Assembly: GCA_963971405.1 (NCBI GenBank)
Contig: OZ020486.1
Span: 31,643,419-31,707,418 of the forward strand
Length of the DNA: 64,000 nt
Direction: 5' to 3'
Source of the DNA: Psococerastis gibbosa
Taxonomy: Eukaryota; Arthropoda; Insecta; Psocodea; Psocidae
Below, in pieces: positions 6,880-29,820 of the stretch. The notes under the pieces were generated by a model that was not told the DNA's origin, searched no databases, and saw only the letters and a list, made by a program, of their open reading frames with translations. Within the stretch, counting starts at the first letter, position 1. Each line of letters starts with the position of its first letter. The position numbers and the translations under genes are program-made.

Positions 6880-7000
6880 GGGCTTGTGGTCCAGCAGTTA
6901 AGACGACGCCCCGGTTAGGCGTATATCGTGGGTTCGAATCCCGCCAAGCCCAGTTTTTTCCATATCCTCTAATTTCGGTTAAAGTACTGTACTGTTCGTT
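6880..7000 (+). repeat. tRNA-like SINE (SINE-C), copy 1, with cloverleaf head
   Basis: Positions 6880-6952 fold as a tRNA: acceptor GGGCTTG pairs perfectly with CAAGCCC, a D-arm GTC..GAC, an anticodon stem ACGCC/GGCGT and a T-arm GTGGG-TTCGAAT-CCCGC. The loop CCGGTTA gives anticodon GGT (Thr-like), but position 33 is C where working tRNAs have T. The tail (TTTTTTCC, then TCTCTAATTTCGGTTAA-like sequence) recurs after the tRNA-like heads at 49.1, 58.0 and 58.2 kb. I therefore call it a SINE head rather than a cellular tRNA gene; a tRNA-Thr pseudogene is the alternative. Confidence 0.6.
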
Positions 7001-26964: not shown

Positions 26965-27150
26965 CATGGATTTCGGATATTATTTATATTGTTTCCGTAT
27001 GCATTTTGGGCCATTAGCCAACTGGTACATACGTTGTCGATGTCAACCTACACCGGCTACAAGCGATAATGGACAAGCTGAGACAAGCTTACAATTAACG
27101 CAATGAGACAGCCGAAAGCATGACTTCTTATTAACCAAGTAGATGGTTAA
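26965..27150 (+). repeat. Interspersed repeat B, copy 3
   Basis: CCCATGGATTTCGGATATTA, GTTTCCGTATGCATTTTGGG, GATGTCAACCTACACCGGC and GACAAGCTGAGACAAGC follow in the same order as at 6470-6690. It ends in CATGACTT...TTAACCAAGTA, also shared. Confidence 0.65.
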
Positions 27151-27312
27151 TTGTTAGAGTGGGCCGAAGGGCCCGAAATTCGCCCATATGGAAAATAAAG
27201 ACAATTTTTTCTATAACAGCAAAGGCTTTCACGGCCGGAGTCGAATGAGGAACCAGTAGAATCCGGGCTTATGGGCCGTGGTCGAAGTGAAAGTGAACTT
27301 CCAAACGTTTCG

Positions 27313-27976
27313 TCAACATCTGCGGTCGACATCTTCAGTGGAACTGCGTAGACTTCTAAGATTGTATCTCGGAGGCTCAGCAGCGACTGTGAGGGCAGGA
27401 GGTTGTGCTCTGAAATTTATACTAATATGCGGGGTGGTGGGGGGTGGAGGCGGAGTCATCCTCGCTCCTGATTGGCTCCCTACTACCTCAACCTGATTTC
27501 CGGATGATGACACCAGTTTCTTTGCTGTAGTCTTCTTTAAGGCTGGATACCAAATTCTATTGACCTTTAATCCTTCTTCTTTCCTATTGAAGTTATGCGG
27601 GTGCTTGTGGATCTCTATAGCCTCTCTGTGTAACCGAGGGTGGTATGAAGAAGTTGTAGAAAGTACTGTAGCATCTTGAAATTGTATTATGTGACCGGTT
27701 TGTGTTAGAACATGCTCAGCGATTGCAGACTTCTCCGACTGTAGAAGACGGCAGTTTCGCTTATGTTCATCAATCCTGGTTTTTAAGCTTCGTTTCGTAG
27801 TACCTATATAGACTTCTCCACACGAACACGGAATCCTGTAAACACCTGCTGACGTCATCGGGTCCCGGCTATCTTTGGCTGATCTGTACAAACTATTTAA
27901 TTTTCTCGTAGGCTTGTAAATAGTCTTCACATTGTGCCGTAAGAAGAGTTTACCTATACGGTCTGAGACTCCCTTG
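27313..27976 (-). pseudogene. Penelope-like GIY-YIG endonuclease, minus-strand copy
   Basis: Minus-strand frame ending at 27313. It starts, after the fusion point, with GVSDRIGKLFLRHNVKTIY and runs through the GIY-YIG domain: GVYRIPCSCGEVYIG, TTKRSLKTRIDEHKRNC, AEHVLTQTGH and the REAIEIHKH block with the catalytic-type Glu. CSCGEVYIG with these Cys and the following KRSLKTR are typical of Penelope-like endonucleases, which nick the target during integration. The reverse transcriptase is absent. The C-terminus is Pro-rich and ends STEDVDRRC. The open frame extends to 28005, but everything beyond 27976 is antisense of the other arm. Confidence 0.85.
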
Positions 27977-28451
27977 CCGACCCACACGGATAGATACTTG
28001 AACAAGAATTCTAACCATCATCCGAGCCAAAAACGAGCCATGATAAAGACACTCACCCACCGTGCCAACAGGATCTGCGAACCAACATTTCTTCAACGGG
28101 AACTCAAGCACTTAGACACGGCACTGCAATCGAATGGATACAGCGCACGAGAAATAGCCCGCGCCATCCGACCCCGCATGAATAGATCCGCTCGGCAAGA
28201 CGCACCCCCAAGTACTACTGGCCTACTCTGCCTTCCATTCATCAAGGGAGTCTCAGACCGTATAGGTAAACTCTTCTTACGGCACAATGTGAAGACTATT
28301 TACAAGCCTACGAGAAAATTAAATAGTTTGTACAGATCAGCCAAAGATAGCCGGGACCCGATGACGTCAGCAGGTGTTTACAGGATTCCGTGTTCGTGTG
28401 GAGAAGTCTATATAGGTACTACGAAACGAAGCTTAAAACCCAGGATTGATG
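27977..28451 (+). pseudogene. Penelope-like protein, plus-strand copy cut by the gap
   Basis: Begins at the fusion point with PTHTDRYLNKNSNHHPSQK, the block that ends the reverse-transcriptase core in Penelope-like proteins (usually preceded by VYRK). It continues through the linker (THRANRICEP, LQSNGYSAREIARAI) and into GIY-YIG (GVYRIPCSCGEVYIGTTKR) before stopping at the N run. All 474 bp after the first three bases are repeated identically from 28652. It differs from the minus copy at one noted base (PRID against TRID). Any Met upstream of 27977 is antisense of the other arm, not a start. Confidence 0.8.
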
Positions 28452-28651
28452 NNNNNNNNNNNNNNNNNNNNNNNNNNNNNNNNNNNNNNNNNNNNNNNNN
28501 NNNNNNNNNNNNNNNNNNNNNNNNNNNNNNNNNNNNNNNNNNNNNNNNNNNNNNNNNNNNNNNNNNNNNNNNNNNNNNNNNNNNNNNNNNNNNNNNNNNN
28601 NNNNNNNNNNNNNNNNNNNNNNNNNNNNNNNNNNNNNNNNNNNNNNNNNNN
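28452..28651. other. Assembly gap (200 N)
   Basis: Exactly 200 ambiguous bases, so probably a placeholder of unknown true length. The sequence before it (27978-28451) is the same as the sequence after it (28652-29125), so the two sides may be redundant contig ends. Confidence 0.95.
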
Positions 28652-29580
28652 CGACCCACACGGATAGATACTTGAACAAGAATTCTAACCATCATCCGAG
28701 CCAAAAACGAGCCATGATAAAGACACTCACCCACCGTGCCAACAGGATCTGCGAACCAACATTTCTTCAACGGGAACTCAAGCACTTAGACACGGCACTG
28801 CAATCGAATGGATACAGCGCACGAGAAATAGCCCGCGCCATCCGACCCCGCATGAATAGATCCGCTCGGCAAGACGCACCCCCAAGTACTACTGGCCTAC
28901 TCTGCCTTCCATTCATCAAGGGAGTCTCAGACCGTATAGGTAAACTCTTCTTACGGCACAATGTGAAGACTATTTACAAGCCTACGAGAAAATTAAATAG
29001 TTTGTACAGATCAGCCAAAGATAGCCGGGACCCGATGACGTCAGCAGGTGTTTACAGGATTCCGTGTTCGTGTGGAGAAGTCTATATAGGTACTACGAAA
29101 CGAAGCTTAAAACCCAGGATTGATGAACATAAGCGAAACTGCCGTCTTCTACAGTCGGAGAAGTCTGCAATCGCTGAGCATGTTCTAACACAAACCGGTC
29201 ACATAATACAATTTCAAGATGCTACAGTACTTTCTACAACTTCTTCATACCACCCTCGGTTACACAGAGAGGCTATAGAGATCCACAAGCACCCGCATAA
29301 CTTCAATAGGAAAGAAGAAGGATTAAAGGTCAATAGAATTTGGTATCCAGCCTTAAAGAAGACTACAGCAAAGAAACTGGTGTCATCATCCGGAAATCAG
29401 GTTGAGGTAGTAGGGAGCCAATCAGGAGCGAGGATGACTCCGCCTCCACCCCCCACCACCCCGCATATTAGTATAAATTTCAGAGCACAACCTCCTGCCC
29501 TCACAGTCGCTGCTGAGCCTCCGAGATACAATCTTAGAAGTCTACGCAGTTCCACTGAAGATGTCGACCGCAGATGTTGA
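28652..29580 (+). pseudogene. Penelope-like C-terminal region with full GIY-YIG domain, plus strand
   Basis: Open from the gap to the stop at 29578-29580. In order: THTDRYLNKNSNHHPSQKR (end of RT), a linker rich in Arg, GVSDRIGKLFLRHNVKTIY, the GIY-YIG nuclease (GVYRIPCSCGEVYIG; KPRIDEHKRNC; AEHVLTQTGHIIQFQD; HREAIEIHKHPHNFNRKEEG; NRIWYPAL), and a Pro-rich tail with PPPPPTTPH. The RT palm and fingers are missing, either lost by truncation or hidden in the gap. Whether the gap region holds more of the element cannot be decided. Sequence identity between arms shows the insertion is young. Confidence 0.85.
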
Positions 29581-29820
29581 CGAAACGTTTGGAAGTTCAC
29601 TTTCACTTCGACCACGGCCCATAAGCCCGGATTCTACTGGTTCCACAATTTTTTCTTTCTTTCTTTCTATCTTACAGATATACATAAGTCCTGCCACCCC
29701 GTAAGTCGGAGACTCTCGTTCCAATTCCGTTCCCGTTCAATATCTTTATTTCCCTTATCTCGAAAATTTAAAATGGATTAATAAGTTAAAAGCTCACCAT
29801 CATTTTAATCACAAGAAGTC

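Follow-up and report, generated by a model that had tools for sequence, protein, structure and literature searches.

An inverted pair of element copies within the 64,000-nt stretch of Psococerastis gibbosa DNA analysed here (contig OZ020486.1; hereafter the window) is best read as one Penelope-like insertion made by two-sided target priming, a reading that we put at roughly 75% probability. A target duplication surrounds both arms, one outer end is tailed and the other is short, the inner ends are unequal, and the arms are closely similar in sequence. A survey of family copies in the host genome for inverted arms, of the kind that the initial annotation had called for, indicates that this architecture is recurrent and not a one-off: the loci examined contain 36 head-to-head insertions, and two-armed entry in one event looks like the usual insertion mode of the family. 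The informative part is a strict one-tail rule, which constrains any structural model of the integration complex.

The window insertion comprises the following features.

27103..27200, no strand: left target flank, belonging to the 3′ part of an interspersed repeat; the TTTC tail of this repeat resumes in the right flank from 29657
27201..27212, no strand: left copy of the target site duplication, 12 bp, ACAATTTTTTCT
27213..27245, minus strand: tail, the ~34-nt 3′ extension of the left arm
27246..27976, minus strand: left arm in reverse, unit positions 2629 down to 1902, 5′-truncated
27976..27977, no strand: head-to-head junction of the arms, with no insert and no overlap
27977..28451, plus strand: right arm on the left contig (unit 1636-2110), of which 474 nt recur unchanged where the next contig begins
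28452..28651, no strand: assembly gap of exactly 200 N
28652..29644, plus strand: right arm on the right contig, unit 1637-2629, with a short, tailless 3′ end
29047..29091, plus strand: motif that we take to be GIY-YIG-like, GVYRIPCSCGEVYIG, for which Pfam and a fold search gave no match
29472..29478, plus strand: TATAAAT, 29-34 nt upstream of the inner ends common to a group of short arms
29645..29656, no strand: right copy of the target site duplication, 12 bp

The 12-mer stands at both outer boundaries of the inverted structure, as expected if a head-to-head pair sits inside one 12-bp duplication, which is how the locus had been annotated. Three copies occur in the window where 0.06 would be expected, and the third (minus strand, 25590) lies in AT-rich DNA away from the element. 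Segments 27246-27976 and 28917-29647 form a 731-nt inverted repeat whose only mismatch, at 27780/29113, agrees with the single-base difference reported earlier. A 21-mer over this mismatch has the left-arm base in all 23 other loci in which it was found and the right-arm base in none, which makes the change unique to the right arm. The fusion of GVSDRIGK-coding to PTHTDRYL-coding sequence described in the initial annotation is also present, with the two blocks abutting at 27976/27977. Only the left arm extends into the tail, at about 27213-27245.

The element inserted into an interspersed repeat, within its TTTC tail. When the window flanks are joined with a single 12-mer, the resulting 34-mer occurs exactly at 8 other places, and 39 of the 40 scored matches to a 114-nt join of the flanks (40 scored of 816 candidates) cross the join. 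These empty sites are paralogous, being other copies of the target repeat rather than alleles of the window. With the duplication enclosing the pair, intact paralogous empty sites and arms that are 1/728 apart, the suggestion that both arms were laid down in one event is supported. Along C1:3058350-3709876, one variant of the 34-mer from the target repeat is repeated, with copies about 103, 104, 113 and 331 kb apart; it also occurs once on C13, at C13:2412620. These sites possibly mark large duplicated blocks.

The genome searched comprises 409 Mb in 68 contigs and holds 3423 family 3′ ends at ≤2 mismatches. Tailed ends number 1801, or 53 percent of the 3′ ends when matched 33-place patterns are compared, and 2233 under a looser tail pattern with 3 mismatches allowed. 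An earlier count of 2098 ends is not comparable with the 1801 tails, its pattern having cost the common C-type one mismatch.

The 36 head-to-head insertions were found in 20 ten-kb loci, chosen as the best matches to the window’s right arm, in 20 short stretches and in the window itself. The short stretches are close head-to-head pairs on C1 and in the first 10.9 Mb of C2, together with one triple and one C3 pair, and one of two near-duplicate C2 pairs was used; coordinate-based tail marks were visible while they were being chosen, and none was dropped on their account. At most 35 of the 36 dimers are independent, because L037 (C13:2.40 Mb) and L040 (C1:3.72 Mb) have common breakpoints and a common flank. 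The breakpoints of these two dimers are identical and their orientations opposite, apparently the result of a segmental duplication between contigs, with the L037 copy rearranged. Four of the 20 ten-kb loci (L021, L036, L038 and L039) yielded neither a clear dimer nor a clean duplication; L034, listed as a single copy, has a second arm of 14 nt and a 15-bp repeat.

Pairing is also apparent from coordinates. Among the 100 exact 3′ ends listed, which come from C1 and part of C2, neighbours ≤8 kb apart form 32 head-to-head, 3 + 2 tandem and 1 tail-to-tail arrangements, and the sole tail-to-tail pair falls between two adjoining dimers. By chance, 60 randomly placed ends on C1 are expected to give 0.5 adjacent pairs. 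No exact partner lies within 8 kb of 29 of the 100 listed ends, a count made from coordinates, and at least 3 of these 29 (C1:1295591, C1:6649869 and C1:36607618) have a partner with a changed end. The family includes A and C subfamilies that differ by one base at the 3′ end (CATAAGCC versus CATCAGCC, for example at window positions 29611-29644). The two arms agree on this base in 25 of 25 head-to-head pairs from C1 and early C2, 3 of them A-type and 22 C-type.

Two forms of 3′ end are found in the element: a short one, ending near TACTGGTTCCTCA, and a tailed one that is ~34 nt longer. Every one of the 36 dimers has one outer end of each kind, the short end reaching 3-11 nt past GGTTCC and the tailed end 33-37 nt, and the three-copy inserts L024, L047 and L051 keep the one-tail rule at their outer ends. 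Head-to-head clusters defined by coordinates only, a set that overlaps the loci read and leaves out one four-end cluster, contain exactly one exact tail in 27 of 30 cases, none in 3 and two in 0. Of the three tailless clusters, L047 proved to be tailed on reading, and the other two are known from coordinates alone. No length rule was seen for the tailed arm, which is the shorter in 15 rows and the longer in 16, counting the unreliable rows of L022 and L029. Direct repeats of 11-15 bp flank 34 of the 36 dimers at their outer boundaries, the exceptions being L037 (rearranged, with none) and L053 (a 6-bp match only). Control pairings of left and right flanks from different loci gave repeats of ≥9 bp in 0 of 1258 cases.

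Within dimers, the arms differ at 16 of 14,524 compared sites (23 dimers, L037 left out), a figure that counts four intervals twice and becomes, by hand, 15 of 13,926 without them. For overlaps >700 nt the arm difference is always under the between-locus mean. The window’s arms have 1 difference in 728 compared sites, whereas every other copy compared shows at least 2, and arms are similarly closer to each other than to the closest other copy compared in L022 (2 versus 15), L024 (0 versus 3), L027 (0 versus 2) and L035 (1 versus 4). The arms are no closer to each other than to the nearest other copy in L025 (one of two long intervals), L031 and L040, and they diverge beyond the between-locus mean in the short overlaps of L043, L049 and L050. 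On these alignments, both arms of a dimer probably derive from a single source locus or a single RNA; their similarity could alternatively stem from gene conversion between them.

Inner junctions were compared in 31 of 35 rows. Four (L022, L029, L030 and L038) were left out as unreliable, with wrap-around or multi-piece arms, and L033 and L035 were kept although one arm of each is in pieces. The two inner ends are >20 nt apart in 23 of the 31 junctions, tallied by hand, and within 20 nt in 8 (L041, L044, L050, L054, L055, L057, L058 and L060), with both ends at an identical position in L041 and in L050. Joins are free of inserted sequence in 19 of the 31, with a mean overlap of 2.4 nt versus 0.67 by chance, and 12 have filler of 5-41 nt. 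Inner ends fall at unit 2484-2492 in 11 of 70 cases, 29-34 nt below the TATAAAT box. This box is a putative promoter, with a putative RNA start near 29501 that would place the RNA 5′ end at unit 2484-2492. Inner ends at this position would then be expected from run-off at the RNA 5′ end, and arms stopping near it would have started inside the 5′ pLTR of the RNA, if the RNA is full length. In L042, L054 and L058, the filler by arms ending near unit 2487 appears by eye to consist of shuffled CACAGTCGCTGCTG pieces, and looks as if the polymerase had slipped at the RNA 5′ end.

In two-sided target priming, an element nuclease would cut both target strands with a stagger of ~12 bp, leaving two 3′ ends, and element RNA would be reverse-transcribed from each of them, beginning inside the common 3′ region. 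One primer would start at the downstream site to give the tailed end, and the other ~34 nt upstream to give the short end. Both cDNAs would run inward, stopping early or at the RNA 5′ end, and their two ends would be joined through microhomology or with filler; fill-in of the stagger would create the target duplication. We infer the nuclease, this order of steps, and the use of one RNA or of two from the same source. Counting against this scheme are the four ten-kb loci that yielded no clear dimer, the 29 listed ends that have no exact partner nearby, the near-symmetric junctions, the dimers whose arms are no closer to each other than to other copies, and the absence of a Pfam or fold match for GIY-YIG.

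A template switch or self-priming, in which the inverted arm is copied from a folded-back template, either one cDNA or an antisense RNA, is the strongest competitor, though an unlikely one. The 8 of 31 near-symmetric junctions could arise in this way too, including L041 and L050 with their coincident ends, and self-priming on an antisense template has been proposed for Penelope of Adineta vaga (PMC3846280). However, a fold-back copies its own outer end, and equal tail status would be expected at the two outer ends, whereas these differ in 36 of 36 dimers; nor does it sit well with inner ends that lie >20 nt apart in 23 of 31 junctions. With different outer 3′ stops throughout and unequal inner ends at most junctions, a scheme of two primers and two cDNAs fits better. 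The same counts, with both arms read as beginning at cut target ends, tell against the proposal in the initial annotation that the dimer records a switch of the reverse transcriptase to an inverted template.

The assembly itself offers another possible source of inverted arms. On either side of the 200-N gap in the window, 27978-28451 and 28652-29125 are identical at 474 of 474 positions, and the forward arm was probably written twice as an unmerged overlap of two contig ends, an assembly artefact; a larger structure may be concealed in the gap. If the forward arm is counted once, about 1758 nt of element would remain (2432 less the 200 N and the 474 repeated nt). Gaps of 200 N occur in 5 of the 20 other ten-kb family loci (L022, L024, L025, L031 and L035), with forward-arm sequence doubled across the gap also in L022, L024 and L025, and the family's inverted copies appear to be a repeated cause of assembly breaks. 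The gaps, and the 474 nt repeated around the one in the window, could be taken to mean that the inverted arm is an assembly chimera. We regard this as very improbable, given that short dimers without gaps have the same design in L041-L060, 19 of 20 of them with 11-15 bp duplications. The artefact looks confined to the doubled forward arm.

Independent insertion of two copies, the later one next to or within the earlier, is hardly credible: some nesting must occur in a family with 3423 3′ ends, but a single duplication encloses both arms in 34 of 36 dimers, the window’s empty site is uninterrupted elsewhere, the A/C base is common to both arms in 25 of 25 pairs, and head-to-head adjacencies outnumber tail-to-tail ones by 32 to 1.

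Two-sided target priming has a relative in LINE-1 twin priming, in which the second target end primes a second cDNA and generates an inversion within one target duplication. In LINE-1, the second priming takes place at an internal RNA position and a single true 3′ end results, unlike the dimers described here, which have an element 3′ end at each outer boundary. Adineta vaga already provides published examples of head-to-head Penelope copies with a single tail and a target duplication, and head-to-head is the commonest inverted arrangement of its pLTRs (Pen2a_Av and others; PMC3846280). Those elements share with the present family inverted pLTRs, a tail (31 bp) on one of them, and partial tandems, and their target duplications of 8-10 bp likewise enclose whole inserts. 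In Adineta vaga the tail is described as optional and copies are few (PMC3846280), whereas here all 36 dimers have exactly one tail and 3′ ends number in the thousands. Self-priming on antisense RNA is the mechanism that the Adineta vaga study favours.

Poseidon (PAc) of Anolis carolinensis has a tail between two reverse transcription start sites near the start of the ORF, and its pLTRs likewise form tandems; the evidence there is in vitro, and inverted dimers are undiscussed in the sections of the paper available to us (PMC11167929). In that assay, the PAc protein cuts both strands and extends them from two neighbouring start sites, which together delimit the tail; no start-site difference between the strands was seen (PMC11167929), so the strict tail asymmetry described here is left unexplained by the assay. 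We tentatively suggest, at somewhat less than even odds, that every integration uses each start site exactly once, one per target strand, and that the complex is two-headed and asymmetric; possibly a single RNA is copied twice, the first primer starting at the upstream site and the second at the still-free tail, displacing the first copy. A simple idea is that the tail, unoccupied by the first primer, serves the second one on the same RNA.

The models of Penelope integration on offer, to the extent that the available parts of these papers represent them, are antisense self-priming (PMC3846280) and the both-strand extension observed in vitro (PMC11167929). Such models become separable from sequence alone in a family that has thousands of 3′ ends nearly identical to one another, clean duplications of ~12 bp and a single tail in each dimer, and the evidence here favours two-sided priming. 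No statement of the exact one-tail rule was found in the accessible parts of either paper (PMC3846280, PMC11167929); our search probably misses many Penelope papers, and we do not claim that the rule is unpublished.

The Penelope-like identity first assigned from the window is upheld by features of the family. As in Penelope-like elements, there is a single long ORF with a reverse transcriptase: in copy L024, residues 358-544 of an 882-aa frame match the Pfam family RVT_1 (E 9.2e-12). Same-strand 3′ ends lie 2629 nt apart in 4 places, L024 included, consistent with tandem units and pLTRs, and a tail in the 30-40 bp range (~34 nt) is borne by one inverted pLTR per dimer in 36 of 36. Pfam found no match in the window fragments and RVT_1 alone in the family frame, where no GIY-YIG match appeared up to E 1; NCBIfam matched the frame to group II, Drt2 and retron reverse transcriptases, all far below cut-offs. 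A C-terminal GIY-YIG endonuclease marks the endonuclease-containing Penelope-like elements; for the putative GIY-YIG domain here, a single-sequence AlphaFold model had a mean pLDDT of 53 (low confidence), and Foldseek returned no meaningful match. A search for relatives in viral contigs found none.

The letters CTGAAGA...GACGAAAC, which overlap the start codon, may resemble the hammerhead ribozyme motif of Penelope-like pLTRs. Rfam gave no match to E 1 over 27100-29760, hammerhead ribozyme included, and the pLTR RNA fold is not unusually stable (z 0.47). A hammerhead ribozyme is shown for PAc (PMC11167929), in contrast to the window element as searched with Rfam.

Relatives ~81-83% identical at the 3′ end occur at L023:5065-5188 and L029:8778-8891, the former also with a tail-like extension. 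Elsewhere in the window, a tRNA-Thr(GGT) is predicted at 6880-6952. The genome contains TTAGG repeats, which among the matches listed are massed near one end of C1.
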